Part shown: piece by piece, positions 4,981 through 24,707 of the stretch
Layout: each line of letters opens with the position of its first letter
How positions within the stretch are numbered: the first letter of the stretch is position 1
IMG/VR virus record: IMGVR_UViG_3300030419_001557
Coordinates: 1-36,683 of that record
Strand: one strand, 5' to 3'
Length of the DNA stretch: 36,683 nucleotides
Source: a virus
Notes under the pieces: generated by a model
Told to the model about the DNA's origin: nothing
Databases searched by the model: none
What the model saw: only the letters and a program-made list of their open reading frames with translations
Program-made: the position numbers and the translations under genes

Positions 4981-5259
4981 TTACCACTTCACTTTGTTTG
5001 CCCAATACGCAGCACTCATTTTTCCTTTAGCTATGTTACTTGCGTGTCGAGCTTTAAATGATTTTCTTCTTGCTTTTTGTTTAGCTGTCTTAGGACTTTT
5101 ACCTGCCCCACTAACACCTTGTTGCCCAAATCTAATAGTTTTTACCTGGTCACCTGACTTAGCAACTACTACATGAGATTTGGTTTTGTGATTAGGAGTT
5201 CGTTTAGGTTTGTTAAACCCTGAAACCCCTGCTCTTTTTAATCTTGGATCTCTAGCCAT
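4981..5259 (-). CDS. 92-aa basic conserved phage protein
   Basis: The protein starts at ATG 5259 (MARDPRLKRAGVSGFNKPKR). It contains HKTKSHVVVAKSGDQVKTIRFGQQGVSG and ends KGKMSAAYWANKVKW, with a Lys/Arg-rich middle. I recognise this overall pattern from aquatic phage genomes, where it stays a protein of unknown function beside structural genes. The conserved IRFGQQG and YWANKVKW ends suggest a defined small fold rather than a disordered peptide. It lies four bases upstream of the 50-aa gene and two bases downstream of the 29-aa gene, so the three are surely co-transcribed. Confidence 0.87.
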   Translation of the reverse strand: MARDPRLKRAGVSGFNKPKRTPNHKTKSHVVVAKSGDQVKTIRFGQQGVSGAGKSPKTAKQKARRKSFKARHASNIAKGKMSAAYWANKVKW

Positions 5260-18607: not shown

Positions 18608-19948
18608 TTACCACCTCTTTACCTTAATTCGATCCATATTTTCTATGTGACTGTACCCAAATCTATCAATCAACCCGTATATTAAGGCTTTAATTCCATG
18701 ATTATACTTATCTTCTGGCTGATTGCCAACTATGTTTCCGTCTCGATCTGTTTTCCATTTATAAACTCTTGTCTGCCCGTCAAACGGATTTGGAGCTGCC
18801 CCAAACTCTGACAACAGCCCTTTACATTTAGGGTTAACTACTAACTTGGGTCTATGGTGTTTAGGGTCTACTTTTAACATAGACTTTAATCTTTCTGTTC
18901 CGTCATTAATTTTTACTTTTTGTGATGCCATATACAATCCAGCTTTGTCTAACCATACTTCTGCGGGAGCAGACATGGCTTGATGCTGATACCCTGCTAC
19001 ATCAATTACACCAAAGCGGACATCTTTCCACCATGGTTTATCCATTGCCATGTCTACAATTTCTTCTGTTATAAGACTTTTTTCATATATTTCATCAACG
19101 ACACATATTTGGTCGTCAATAATCTGGACAACTTCAACTGCGTATCCGCCTGCATACCCGGGATCAATCCACAAATGAACTGGCTCATTCGGTATATATT
19201 CGACTTCTCTAACATGGTAATCTGCTCTAAACTCATGGAATACGAGCCCGCGTGGAGGGCTAGGGATTCCCATGATTCTTTCTTTGAAGAAATCGTCTGA
19301 CGAGTCTTTTTCCAATCTTTTAATTTCTGGGTCATCTTCTCCTCCAGGGTAAAAATGTATGTTGGTATATGACGGCAAAGAGTATGCTTTTTCTACGTCT
19401 GTTCCGTGTTGCCATGCTAAAAATAGCTGTGGATACCACCCTAATGAGCCTTCAAAAGTGCCGCCTAGAAACATCCATGCTTTTTTTGGAGCACATCTAC
19501 CACGTAATCTGTAAAATGTTTCTAAATCTAACTGTGATGCTTCACAGCCTATAATACCATCTGGTGCTCTCATAGCTAAAGTTCTTGGGTCTTTAGCTGA
19601 TTTTGTCTCAATAACAGTGCCATCTGCAAGTTCTATCCTGCCAGGATCTACACGTTTGGATGCTTTTTTTAGTATTCCAAGTGTTGCAAAATCGTCTACT
19701 AAGTACATAAATTCTGCTCTGGATCTTTCGTAATCGGCTGCAACCAACCAAAACAACGCAGGACCTTTAGTTTCTGTCCATTTAGACAATAAAAACTTGC
19801 TGGCTACCAAACTTTTACCTGCTTGTTCACCGCCAGCTACCAAAACAAACCTTTTATCTGAATAAACTATAGGTTCTTGTGCTTCTGTAGGCTTGTAACC
19901 TACCTTTTCAAACACAAATTTAGTCGCTGTAGTCGATTCTGTGCTCAT
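18608..19948 (-). CDS. terL: Terminase large subunit
   Basis: The 446-aa protein starts at ATG 19948, overlapping TerS by four bases (ATGA). Walker A is GGEQAGKS at residues 39-46, with the preceding Q-motif region YKPTEAQEPI. A Walker B-like strand IIGCEASQ (132-139) supplies E136, although the residue before it is Cys rather than Asp. The coupling motif is GGTFEG (162-167). The RNase H-like nuclease has D262 in LWIDPGYAGG and D316 in GVIDVAGY, with a third metal site likely in EDKYNHGIKAL near the end. It packages DNA into the prohead using ATP and cuts the concatemer. Confidence 0.93.
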   Translation of the reverse strand: MSTESTTATKFVFEKVGYKPTEAQEPIVYSDKRFVLVAGGEQAGKSLVASKFLLSKWTETKGPALFWLVAADYERSRAEFMYLVDDFATLGILKKASKRVDPGRIELADGTVIETKSAKDPRTLAMRAPDGIIGCEASQLDLETFYRLRGRCAPKKAWMFLGGTFEGSLGWYPQLFLAWQHGTDVEKAYSLPSYTNIHFYPGGEDDPEIKRLEKDSSDDFFKERIMGIPSPPRGLVFHEFRADYHVREVEYIPNEPVHLWIDPGYAGGYAVEVVQIIDDQICVVDEIYEKSLITEEIVDMAMDKPWWKDVRFGVIDVAGYQHQAMSAPAEVWLDKAGLYMASQKVKINDGTERLKSMLKVDPKHHRPKLVVNPKCKGLLSEFGAAPNPFDGQTRVYKWKTDRDGNIVGNQPEDKYNHGIKALIYGLIDRFGYSHIENMDRIKVKRW

Positions 19949-20424
19949 TCGCTGACGCCTTTATCTTTTAAAATCCTATTTGCTTCGTTAATAGCTACGT
20001 TCATTTTACTAGGGACAGAGGGTTTCTTTTTTTTCTTTTTTTCTTCTACTGCAAAGGTTTTTAGTTCATCTATGAGTTTCATTGCAGTGGTATCTTGCTG
20101 TACATGTTCTTGATATTTGTTAGGTTTTGCTCCTTTTAACAAAAATATTAACAATGCTGGGTTAGATTTGTAATCTTTTTCCTTAAATTGCTCCCCAATT
20201 AGTGCAAATGCCTCACTTTCCATCTTATCAGACCATCTTTCCATGGCTGTTTCCCATGAAAGTCTAAATTTTTCATCAGATTCTCTGTAATAATACAAAG
20301 TTGGAGTAGAAACTTTTGCACTTTTTGCTGATAAAGTGATGTTACCAGACTCTTCAAGTAACTTTATAAAGGTTTCCATCTTTTTTACAGGTTTTACTTT
20401 AGGAATATACTCTTTTTTTGCCAT
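19945..20424 (-). CDS. terS: Terminase small subunit
   Basis: The 159-aa protein starts at ATG 20424. Residues 24-48 (EESGNITLSAKSAKVSTPTL) form a helix-turn-helix of the kind that recognises the packaging site. Residues 50-110 are helical oligomerisation material (AMERWSDKMESEAFALIG). A poly-Lys stretch (EEKKKKKKPS) precedes a final helix that may bind TerL. It is the first gene of the minus-strand late block and borders the gene-free region, so its packaging target could lie in 20425-21453; that is inference. Confidence 0.88.
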   Translation of the reverse strand: MAKKEYIPKVKPVKKMETFIKLLEESGNITLSAKSAKVSTPTLYYYRESDEKFRLSWETAMERWSDKMESEAFALIGEQFKEKDYKSNPALLIFLLKGAKPNKYQEHVQQDTTAMKLIDELKTFAVEEKKKKKKPSVPSKMNVAINEANRILKDKGVSE

Positions 20425-20466
20425 TTTTTATTAAAAACCTTGCAAAATATTAATAATAGTATTAAT

Positions 20467-20494
20467 ATATTACTACAAATTTGCTAATAAGCAA
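20467..20494 (-). promoter_or_regulatory. Candidate late promoter for the terminase block
   Basis: On the minus strand TTGCTT (20494-20489) and TAATAT (20472-20467) are spaced by 16 bases, placing transcription start near 20460, about 36 bases before the TerS start. The perfect inverted repeat ATTTGCT-aata-AGCAAAT at 20479-20496 covers the -35 hexamer and could be an operator that keeps late genes silent early. The region is AT-rich, so chance matches are likely. Confidence 0.35.
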
Positions 20495-20496
20495 AT

Positions 20497-20523
20497 GTCA
20501 GACCTCCATTGCGTATGTCTGAC
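20497..20523. repeat. GTCAGAC/GTCTGAC inverted repeat
   Basis: GTCAGAC (20497-20503) and GTCTGAC (20517-20523) are perfect seven-base arms around a 13-base loop, directly behind the late promoter candidate. The same heptamer GTCTGAC returns inside the loop of the larger inverted repeat at 20851-20857, suggesting a recognised word. Could be an operator half-site pair. Confidence 0.5.
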
Positions 20524-20691
20524 TTACCAAAAACTGCGTGAAGTATTTAATAAAAAACGTAGCGGGGCAAGATAGATATTGCGAAACTTAGGCTACAGAA
20601 TACAGAACATAAGTGGAATCTGGACTCGTTAAACTGGCAAAGGGTAACTTGAAATCTCATTCAGAAGGGGCAACTATCTTTAAAAGAATAC

Positions 20692-20729
20692 TTTTTATCC
20701 CACACGAAAATCCGTGGGGGGTAGGGGGG
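20692..20729. repeat. Hairpin followed by double G6 tract
   Basis: A CCCACACG arm around 20699-20706 can pair with CGTGGGGG, with one A-G mismatch and a six-base loop. Two runs of six G (20716-20721 and 20724-20729) are separated only by TA. Such G-tracts are conspicuous in this AT-rich sequence. Only two runs exist, so a full intramolecular quadruplex would need each run to serve twice; protein binding or a replication pause are other options. Confidence 0.4.
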
Positions 20730-20820
20730 ACTTTTTAAAAGAATAGTAACGGAGAGAATCTCTTTTAAAACGCTCCCCAGAACGCTTTACTTCTACACCT
20801 TCACAAATTATACTATTAAC

Positions 20821-20878
20821 GGGACTTGTAAATATTTTCATAATAAAAAGGTCTGACAACTGTTTTTATGCAAGTCCC
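20821..20878. repeat. Long inverted repeat with nested stem
   Basis: GGGACTTG (20821-20828) and CAAGTCCC (20871-20878) are perfect eight-base arms. Inside, ATAAAAA faces TTTTTAT, and the loop carries GTCTGAC. No T-run follows on either strand at terminator distance, so this is more likely a cruciform, protein site or RNA fold than a terminator. Confidence 0.5.
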
Positions 20879-21029
20879 ACAAAACTCACACAAGCTACTC
20901 TGGGAAACGCCTTTTTGTAAAAAAATTCTGTCAAGGGTATACATTACCCACATACCATTCCCCCAAGCCATGCACCCGATATCACTAACGGCATCGACTG
21001 CATGGGAAATCAAGACGGGCGAACGGGCG

Positions 21030-21140
21030 ATTCAATTTTTATTCAAATCTTTTCAAATTCTTTTCAAATTCTTTTCAAATCTATTCAACGTTTATTCAAA
21101 AGTATTCAAAATTTATTCAATTTTATTCAAATTTATTCAA
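21030..21140. repeat. Eleven TTCAA repeats phased at 10.5 bp
   Basis: The core (A/T)TTCAA begins at 21030, 21041, 21051, 21062, 21073, 21083, 21094, 21104, 21115, 21125 and 21135. Steps alternate 10 and 11, averaging exactly 10.5 bases, the helical repeat of B-DNA. Every core therefore faces the same side of the helix and the T- and A-runs around it would add up to intrinsic curvature. The array is 313 bases upstream of the orphan 425-aa gene. Iteron, centromere-like and bent-DNA functions are all possible; none is shown. Confidence 0.85.
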
Positions 21141-21280
21141 CGCATTATTTTAATAGTATTTAATAGTGATTCTTTTTTTTAGTAATTTATCGCTTTTATT
21201 TTTTTATTTTTAACGCTGTATTTTTCAAGCCTTTAAAATTCCAGGCTACCCTTCATAAAACACGCTAAAAAATAGCCTTT

Positions 21281-21312: not shown

Positions 21313-21341
21313 TAGACTCAACGTCATATGTCATATATAAT
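21313..21341 (+). promoter_or_regulatory. Candidate promoter of the orphan 425-aa gene
   Basis: TAGACT (21313-21318) and a perfect TATAAT (21336-21341) are 17 bases apart, putting the start near 21348 and leaving a leader of about 105 bases. That leader contains TTGTTCTTTA and the left arm of the 20-bp inverted repeat. The upstream palindrome suggests control by a dimeric regulator, perhaps the gene product itself. Confidence 0.55.
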
Positions 21342-21391
21342 GGATTCATAGTCATTTATTGACTTGTACAAATAATATTTGTTCTTTAAAA

Positions 21392-21411
21392 ATTGAATAT
21401 TGAAATTTACC
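21392..21411 (+). repeat. 20-bp inverted repeat, left arm
   Basis: ATTGAATATTGAAATTTACC lies 42 bases before the start codon of the 425-aa gene. Its exact reverse complement occurs at 22761-22780 after the gene. A neighbouring ten-mer, TTGTTCTTTA at 21379-21388, also has an exact reverse complement at 22740-22749. Confidence 0.85.
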
Positions 21412-21453: not shown

Positions 21454-22731
21454 ATGAAACTACAAGAGTTAACAGAGTTAAAAAAGGTAAATGTAGGATT
21501 ATCAACAAAAGGTATAGAGAACCTAGAAGATCATAAACTAATGAAATCTAAAATGGAATATTTCAAAAATTTGAATGATTCATACAGTAAAAGTTTTCAA
21601 GGTTTTGTACTAGGTTTTCAAAATTCCATGAATGGTAATTCCTTGTACTACACACTAAGTACAAAAGGGTATAAAAACGATAAAAAAATTACTAGTGATG
21701 AGTTAGTTAATTTAGGAATCGTTGACAAATCCGTTTTTGGTTATAATTTAGAGTCATATGGTATTGAGTCCGTTAATGTTAGTTTTCAAGCGAATTCTAA
21801 CTATAACGATTCAATCGGTAGCACTATAAATAACATGACCAAACAGTACAAAAAAGGAATCAAAAATCTAATTATGAACATTCCGTTAACGTTATTTTCA
21901 GATATGGATTATTCGTTAGAAAAACTTGATTTAATTATTAAGATTTTCGAATATCAATTATCTAGTAATAATGAAGTGGTAGGACTTAACAACGGATTAA
22001 AAGCCAATTTGATACCATTACTTGAAAAATTTGGTTATCAAGCAACGAAATTAAGCCGTCAAGAAATGAAAAATAATTCTGATTCATACATTGAATTTTC
22101 AAAAGAAAAATTTACAGTGAAAAAAGAATTATCAGACATTTTAAAACCATTTAAGACAGAACTTCTAAAATACAAAGCTGAAATTGAAAAACTAAATACA
22201 AAATTTGGTTATGAAGATTCAGCCGATACTAAAGAGAATCCTGGCAGTAAAAATGGTCAAAATAATCCTTATAATTATGTGTACATATTAGAACATATAA
22301 ATATAAACGAAATGGATAAACAAACGGCTATAACTAAGACTTCAACAAGTGGTAACTATAAAAGGCTAAATAGTATTGAGTTTAACGACTACATACATTC
22401 AAACCATATTGATTTAACCAAAACAACAAAAGGTAAAATCAAAAAGGATAATACATATTTGTATTATTTGAAGTTTGAACCAAGTGGAAAGTTTAATTTC
22501 AATATCTATTCCGTTAAGGTTCCAAGTGGTGTAAATATTACTACTATAAACAAACTAAGAAACGATAATATGAAACCACTAAACAAAAACAAAAAAGATT
22601 CTTTAACTGAAAGCGAACAAAAAGCTAGAAAATCAGTTGATAAATCAAACGCTAAAAAGGTTACAAAAAAGGCTAAAGAAAATGAATCAATAGTTTATGA
22701 AGATTCATTTTTCAAAATTCCCAAAAAGTAA
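21454..22731 (+). CDS. Orphan lysine-rich 425-aa protein
   Basis: The protein starts at ATG 21454 with AAAGGG seven bases upstream. I do not recognise the family. Visible layout: mixed region 1-130; helical block 130-250 with amphipathic segments (SLEKLDLIIKIFEYQLSS; ELSDILKPFKTELLKYKAEI); Asn/Gly-rich linker 253-273; beta-rich part 274-360 (NYVYILEHININ, NTYLYYLKFEPSG, FNFNIYSVKVPSG); strongly basic linker 372-410 and an acidic-aromatic end. It looks nucleic-acid-binding. It is monocistronic, with its own promoter and terminator, bracketed by inverted repeats and two palindromes and next to the phased array. In a genome without recognisable replication enzymes, a replication initiator is an attractive guess; a regulator or a mobile cassette gene are alternatives. 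Confidence 0.85.
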   Translation: MKLQELTELKKVNVGLSTKGIENLEDHKLMKSKMEYFKNLNDSYSKSFQGFVLGFQNSMNGNSLYYTLSTKGYKNDKKITSDELVNLGIVDKSVFGYNLESYGIESVNVSFQANSNYNDSIGSTINNMTKQYKKGIKNLIMNIPLTLFSDMDYSLEKLDLIIKIFEYQLSSNNEVVGLNNGLKANLIPLLEKFGYQATKLSRQEMKNNSDSYIEFSKEKFTVKKELSDILKPFKTELLKYKAEIEKLNTKFGYEDSADTKENPGSKNGQNNPYNYVYILEHININEMDKQTAITKTSTSGNYKRLNSIEFNDYIHSNHIDLTKTTKGKIKKDNTYLYYLKFEPSGKFNFNIYSVKVPSGVNITTINKLRNDNMKPLNKNKKDSLTESEQKARKSVDKSNAKKVTKKAKENESIVYEDSFFKIPKK

Positions 22732-24658: not shown

Positions 24659-24707
24659 ACGACAAATAATTTTATCAACCCAAATTCATAGATTAAAGGG
24701 GGTGAGA
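24659..24707 (+). repeat. Intergenic leader repeat B, copy 1
   Basis: A 49-base stretch from ACGACAAATAATTTTATCAA to AAAGGGGGTGAGA matches 26281-26329 at all but one base (G versus A in the ribosome site). Related forms are at 25189, 26531 and 27381. In this copy the ACGACAAATAA start is non-coding, whereas in copy 2 it is the end of a gene, so copy 1 looks like a recombination scar. Confidence 0.85.

Follow-up and report, generated by a model that had tools for sequence, protein, structure and literature searches.

Phased direct repeats as a possible terminase recognition site

Direct repeats that serve as platforms for proteins are already known from origins (PMC6316719), centromeres (PMC5016525) and operators (PMC4832192). 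OmpR/PhoB-type regulators read direct repeats of 11-bp pitch, each comprising a 7-bp motif and a 4-bp spacer (PMC4832192). The known rings of small terminase subunits (TerS) have 8 to 12 subunits, and the HK97 TerS reads DNA emerging from the ring channel, with no wrapping (PMC11331095). A nucleosome-like model of TerS was judged weakly supported in a review (PMC9611059), and whether TerS reads DNA by wrapping or by threading is an acknowledged open question (PMC9611059, PMC11331095).

The window analyzed here is the whole 36,683-nucleotide IMG/VR record IMGVR_UViG_3300030419_001557, a virus contig without end repeats from an uncultured, probably marine phage. It carries eleven copies of a short word, one per helical turn, beside terS, an arrangement for which a limited literature survey found no precedent.

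Architecture of the TTCAA array

The word (A/T)TTCAA occurs eleven times on the plus strand of positions 21030 to 21140, starting at 21030, 21041, 21051, 21062, 21073, 21083, 21094, 21104, 21115, 21125 and 21135. The steps are 11, 10, 11, 11, 10, 11, 10, 11, 10 and 10 (mean, 10.5). Every position and step of the eleven-word array reported in the preliminary description was recovered, and the drift from a 10.5-bp ruler is at most 1 bp throughout 105 bp. The phase had also been called exact. Eleven words at 10/11-bp steps are strong evidence of order, but if steps are restricted to 10 or 11, the probability of keeping within 1 bp of phase is 0.09, and the mean of 10.5 is therefore modest evidence on top of the steps themselves. 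The record as a whole is not enriched in WTTCAA (99 observed versus 110 expected), and the striking features are thus the clustering and the pitch. Base-position spectral power at 10.5 bp was 7.1 for the array versus a shuffle mean of 1.3 (sd, 0.7; maximum, 4.6) and was matched by none of 2000 dinucleotide shuffles; the array ranks first in the 36.7 kb for 10-11-bp periodicity (7.8; runner-up, 3.7). TRF also describes the array as tandemly repeated, with an imperfect unit of 21 bp (matches, 75%; indels, 9%), and growth by duplication may therefore have contributed to it.

Curvature predicted with a wedge model gave a ratio of 1.48 for the array versus 1.12 (sd, 0.08) for shuffles, none of 500 of which reached it, and only 4 of 1829 windows across the record scored higher. 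The corresponding slots of the relatives L132, L130, L134 and L141 are not curved above shuffles. Curvature was consequently rejected as a conserved property, and of the earlier suggestion of a curved origin segment, the bend survives as a prediction for this array but is not kept in relatives. Curvature may aid DNA wrapping.

Genomic context of the array

The array lies in a noncoding gap of ~1.03 kb between a leftward TerS-TerL pair and a rightward early operon. From left to right, a sigma70-like rightward promoter, an RNA-folding block, CCTTTTTGTAAAAAAATTCTGTCAAGGGTA and an inverted repeat are followed by an 8-bp duplication rich in GC, then by the array, and finally by an A/T-rich tract. 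These and the flanking genes are listed here.

18608..19948, minus strand: TerL, large terminase subunit (phrog_2 family)
19945..20424, minus strand: TerS, small terminase subunit with predicted N-terminal HTH (phrog_4044; predicted fold nearest Sf6 TerS)
20474..20919, plus strand: block conserved in relatives on the upstream side of TerS, probably encoding a structured RNA; it neighbors the array and is separate from it
20910..20939, no strand: CCTTTTTGTAAAAAAATTCTGTCAAGGGTA, whose conservation extends to distant TerL relatives that have another TerS
20968..21005, no strand: inverted repeat CCATGC...GCATGG, left of the array (from sequence and relatives)
21015..21030, no strand: two copies of ACGGGCGA, the GC-rich left border of the array
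21141..21235, no strand: AT-rich tract directly right of the array, 13-20% GC, resembling an unwinding element
21454..22731, plus strand: 425-aa orphan ORF opening the rightward operon; its family evolves fast and occupies this position in relatives too (20-43% identity)

The identity of TerS as a small terminase is supported by its match to phrog_4044 (E, 2e-16) and by Sf6 TerS as the top Foldseek match to its predicted structure (probability 0.99 but E 0.16); the N-terminal helices (residues 13-49), a predicted HTH, are modeled confidently. The array is ~600 bp 5' of terS, at 570-600 bp or so from the promoter region of that gene, and about 200 bp from a likely early promoter (TATAAT at 21336). 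Few stretches of the record are as poor in GC as the right half of the array and the adjoining tract. Cumulative GC skew has its minimum at 21-23 kb, where gene orientation also flips.

RusA-like, methyltransferase and endonuclease genes were recognized in the record, but none of the ORFs searched could be assigned to a polymerase, primase, helicase, initiator or partition family. The gap contains no DnaA boxes, and no similar DNA was found in annotated phages. Relatives share no contig end within the gap, their end distances varying widely; this is a weak observation that gives no pointer to a cos site.

Several other elements of the region were observed. The block at 20474-20919 is about 450 nt long, noncoding and conserved in at least eight relatives, and its promoter (20440-20468) is sigma70-like, with TTGCAA (20440) and TAATAT (20463) separated by 17 bp. 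The block has 71 consensus pairs, 11 of them with changes on both sides, its 5' and 3' ends pair (ACAAA...AGGGGC with GCCTTTTTGT), and a search of Rfam returned no match above threshold. It has the look of a large phage RNA of a new structured type. Ahead of the early operon, TTGTTCTTTAAAAATTGAA (21379-21396) is conserved in L055 and L047; we take it to resemble an rRNA-type boxA antitermination element. An intergenic element of ~47 bp (ATAATTTTATCAACCCAAATTCA..TAAAGGGGGTGAGA) is repeated at 24659, 25184, 26281, 26529 and 27380 and bears the ribosome-binding site ahead of several early genes.

Conservation among relatives

Searches with TerS and TerL found 6 and 72 related loci, respectively. 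All eleven words are present in a near-identical contig (L004/L028; 97.6%). At the same place, L055 (TerS 73% identical) has 8 words with steps of 9, 11, 11, 10, 11, 11 and 10, and L047 (TerS 71% identical) also has 8, namely, TTCTA and TTCAG in phase followed by six intact words. The spacers of both differ from those of the window and their copy numbers are off by whole turns, which indicates that the cores and their phase are the conserved part. Of the options in the preliminary description, a platform on one face of the DNA gains support from this persistence of words and phase.

Two further relatives, L130 and L132 (TerS 75-78% identical), keep the conserved block, the CCTTTTTGTAAAAAAATTCTGTCAAGGGTA motif and the A/T tract, together with an altered form of the inverted repeat, and their slot lacks a TTCAA array. 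The slot of L132 instead contains CGATC words 20, 21, 29 and 12 bp apart, and that of L130 contains GCAA words, which follow one another every 5/6 bp. ACAA words, often 5/6 or 11 bp apart, fill the slot of a group that is further removed (TerL about 72%) and has another TerS. Half-turn phasing of CAA (5.25 bp) at the slot was matched by 0 to 4 of 500 shuffles in L130, L144, L171 and L170 and by 47 of 500 in L152; for three of four members of the distant TerL group, few shuffles attained such periodicity. The half-turn phasing is suggestive in L130, L144, L171 and L170 but weak in L152, and we do not take it as proof. The idea that every relative carries the array at its slot was rejected, since strong 10.5-bp power occurs only in the window, L004/L028 and L055, with a weaker signal in L047. 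Absence from close relatives that retain the rest of the region had been named in advance as evidence against the phased array; that absence is found in L130 and L132, but L055 and L047 keep both words and phase. Presence does not strictly follow TerS similarity, the array being kept at 71-73% TerS identity and missing at 75-78%.

The slot begins about 105-125 bp right of CCTTTTTGTAAAAAAATTCTGTCAAGGGTA. The inverted-repeat arms covary in relatives (CCTTGC/GCAAGG in L055 and L047, CCCTA/TAGGG in L130), GGGCG/GTGCG elements like ACGGGCGA stand before the slot in L047, L055 and L132, and an AT-rich tract similar to 21141..21235 is retained in L055, L047, L132 and L130.

Other phased words and a possible host context were noted among the loci collected. 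In L152 and L170, the gap upstream of TerS holds clusters of TGTACATAAAC with a maximum of four copies, each exactly 11 bp from the next, and in the unrelated phage L087, the terS gap (about 5186-5216) holds three AATACATAARC-like words at 11 bp. Three TerL relatives (L209, L210 and L211; 54-56%) lie within Dehalococcoidia/Chloroflexota MAGs, a location that hints at the host of this phage group.

Two products of the region could read the word. The putative recognition-helix residues of TerS are STPTLYY in the window and in L132, which lacks the array, and SYKTVYY in the array-bearing L047 and L055, so the word does not strictly track TerS. The 425-aa ORF has no PHROG or Pfam match and no usable predicted fold (pLDDT 37). 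The members of its family in the window and L047 are about 20% identical and yet share the TTCAA word, whereas those of L047 and L132 are 43% identical and only L047 has the array. The family thus fails to follow the word, and the 425-aa protein, suggested for footprinting in the preliminary description, is not favored as the reader. TerS is easier to accept in that role: a single loss on each of the L132 and L130 lines would be enough, and the HTH regions of array-bearing TerS proteins are about 70% identical.

Recurrence in viral contigs

Two strict scans of the 2.9 million viral contigs of IMG/VR for five phased TTCAA words gave 8 contigs each, together representing seven independent phage groups. 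Four have the array beside terminase genes, two inside replication-initiator-like genes and one beside an integrase, as listed here.

Window group: array beside terS-terL, found by the five-word scan
L087: nine words; the next gene, 12 bp downstream, encodes a 217-aa winged-HTH protein and is followed by TerL
L075: seven to eight words; a run of 323-aa ORF, TerL and portal lies about 590 bp downstream
L077/L099/L213: array about 0.9 kb past TerL
L107: array inside a DnaD/O-like gene
L016: array inside an initiator-like gene with a weak DUF1376 match, below the Pfam cut-off
L212: tandem array near an integrase

The control word TATCA, of the same composition and with the spacing of the second pattern, gave 0 contigs in 2.9 million. 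Word orientation relative to terS-terL is the same in all three upstream arrays, and word counts beside the terminase are 11 and 8 in the window group, 9 in L087 and 7-8 in L075. In L213 (2490-2660) and L077 (2862-3000), the region about 0.9 kb past TerL contains very long arrays of TCAA words at 5- and 10/11-bp steps.

Among the matches listed, L017 and L006 have four-word arrays inside a gene, which is followed by DnaB in L017. The exact 10-bp step runs through all codon frames in both, which indicates that the constraint acts on the DNA. The genes that contain these arrays match no family and are, by their position, presumably replication-initiator-like; the phased arrays inside the initiator-like genes of the unrelated phages L006, L017, L107 and L016 are candidate origins.

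Independent nontandem arrays with at least four words lie outside ORFs of at least 90 aa in 38 of 46 cases among the matches listed, a count that takes the L016 array as inside its open-ended gene, considers ATG-started ORFs only and so misses short genes, and disregards two spurious ORFs (104 and 90 aa) overlapping the window-group and L077 arrays. Among ORFs within 1.5 kb of these 46 listed arrays, TerL (phrog_2) accounts for 8 of 134, a primase/helicase family (phrog_239) for 6 and a DnaB-like family (phrog_19) for 4; beyond 3 kb, phrog_2 accounts for at most 1 of 101. Terminase enrichment near four-word arrays is modest after allowing for TerL gene size and window, and given the low counts and the greater frequency of noncoding gaps around terS, the association is suggestive and unproven. 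Arrays therefore turn up repeatedly in two settings, near packaging genes and near or within replication genes, and phased TTCAA arrays look like a recurring class of one-face protein-binding platform.

Possible functions of the array

The reading ranked first is that the array is all or part of the pac site and is contacted by several HTHs of a TerS ring, a tentative proposal and the best of the candidates. It ranks first because arrays adjoin terminase genes here and in three unrelated groups, share a common orientation in the three upstream cases, number 7 to 11 words compared with rings of 8 to 12, and are kept with two of four diverged TerS proteins. A pac site is expected at or near terS/terL, and the array is indeed about 600 bp 5' of terS; the word counts beside terminase genes (11, 8, 9 and 7-8) are within or near the number of TerS ring subunits. 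Eleven equivalent words, one per helical turn, would allow an oligomeric DNA-binding protein to grip one face of about 110 bp, and the phage's own TerS would be the most likely such protein. Successive HTHs of the ring would contact successive TTCAA words, with the A/T-rich, curved DNA running along the outside of the ring, and TerL would then cut nearby and package. The array, its phase, its place 5' of terS, its persistence with 8-11 copies in diverged relatives and the recurrence of such arrays beside terminase genes of unrelated phages are observed; binding by protein, TerS as the binder and packaging initiation as the outcome are inferred.

Several points count against a TerS-read pac site. 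The slot without TTCAA words beside TerS proteins 75-78% identical to that of the window (L130/L132) argues against it, as do the helix residues, which L132 shares with the window and array-bearing L047 and L055 do not. HK97 TerS threads DNA instead of wrapping it, and the nucleosome-like model has been judged weakly supported. Two groups have arrays inside replication-initiator genes, and large noncoding gaps are common beside terS and could bias an association built on few groups. The broader proposal, that several unrelated phage groups built pac sites as one-per-turn TTCAA strings with word numbers near ring stoichiometry and that the DNA wraps the TerS exterior, is unlikely. If true, it would describe a terminase complex of nucleosome-like form that is encoded in the sequence, each word engaging one HTH, alongside HK97 threading. 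With one word per turn, word numbers near TerS ring sizes and a place next to terS in phages of several unrelated groups, such arrays lend themselves to deciding whether wrapping occurs.

The array could instead consist of replication-origin iterons, with an initiator binding the phased words and melting the adjoining A/T-rich tract, a reading ranked second, close behind the first. One of the most GC-poor stretches of the record takes in part of the array and the DNA just beyond it, giving direct repeats next to an AT-rich unwinding element in a layout like that described for SPP1 oriL/oriR, with direct repeats plus an AT-rich DUE (PMC6316719). TTCAA arrays of 10-11-bp pitch also occur inside the initiator-like genes of L107, L016, L017 and L006, primase/helicase families are common near the four-word arrays listed, and GC skew is lowest here, although confounded by gene direction. 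An iteron origin calls for a cognate initiator, however, and no initiator, helicase or primase was recognized among the record ORFs searched, the 425-aa ORF family does not covary with the word and has no usable fold, and the gap is free of DnaA boxes. If the array is an origin, it marks the replication start in an uncultured phage group without recognizable replication genes. The position between divergent transcription units would also suit an extended operator. A phage or host regulator would polymerize along the words, in the manner of ribbon-helix-helix or OmpR/PhoB-type proteins on direct repeats of 10-11 bp, and would govern both the late promoter (terS) and the divergent early one (425-aa ORF). 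In L087, an RHH protein (Pfam RHH_1) is encoded across the array gap. The distances from the array to the early promoter and the terS promoter region, and the lack of a recognizable RHH regulator among the early ORFs tested in the window, make this improbable.

A tandem repeat that is neutral or shape only, expanded from an A/T-rich motif with no dedicated reader, would account for the 21-bp TRF repeat, the predicted curvature and the two close relatives without an array. Spacers are diverse, yet cores are in phase across relatives, the control word yields no such arrays in 2.9 million contigs, and 38 of 46 independent four-word arrays among the matches listed avoid ORFs of at least 90 aa; such a repeat is still more improbable than an operator. 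The partition site offered in the preliminary description has the least to recommend it. A parC/tubC-like centromere of a phage-plasmid would find parallels in pSK41 ParR, which wraps DNA with clustered contacts on 10-bp repeats, and in tubC, a set of direct repeats (PMC5016525), but the adjacent adaptor and motor genes of such systems were not recognized (ParM, ParA, TubZ, ParR and TubR among the ORFs searched), and this explanation is very improbable.

Comparison with known systems

Under either the packaging or the origin reading, phage genomes can be searched for TTCAA arrays in helical phase as a mark of a noncoding control locus. The array resembles parC/ParR and tubC/TubR in its contiguous direct repeats and in the proposed DNA-wrapping oligomer, pSK41 ParR having a contact period of about 10 bp (PMC5016525), but no partition genes were recognized here among the ORFs searched, and neither the TTCAA word nor terminase adjacency is a parC feature. 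Operator arrays of the OmpR/PhoB type likewise have direct repeats of 11-bp period read by winged-helix proteins on one face (PMC4832192), whereas this locus has eleven repeats with a mean of 10.5, and the closest likely promoter is about 200 bp away.

Phage origin iterons (SPP1 oriL/oriR, lambda O-type) share direct repeats adjoining an AT-rich tract, and the TTCAA word and its pitch also occur inside initiator-like genes of other phages. Unlike those origins, the present array has no recognizable initiator, is intergenic beside terS and combines 10/11 steps with variable spacers. The SPP1 pac site differs in overlapping gene 1 itself and its promoters, but SPP1/SF6 pac and its “nucleosome model” correspond to the locus described here in a site beside or overlapping terS, with a TerS ring bearing HTHs, here putative, and a proposed wrapping of DNA on the outside (PMC9611059, PMC6316719).
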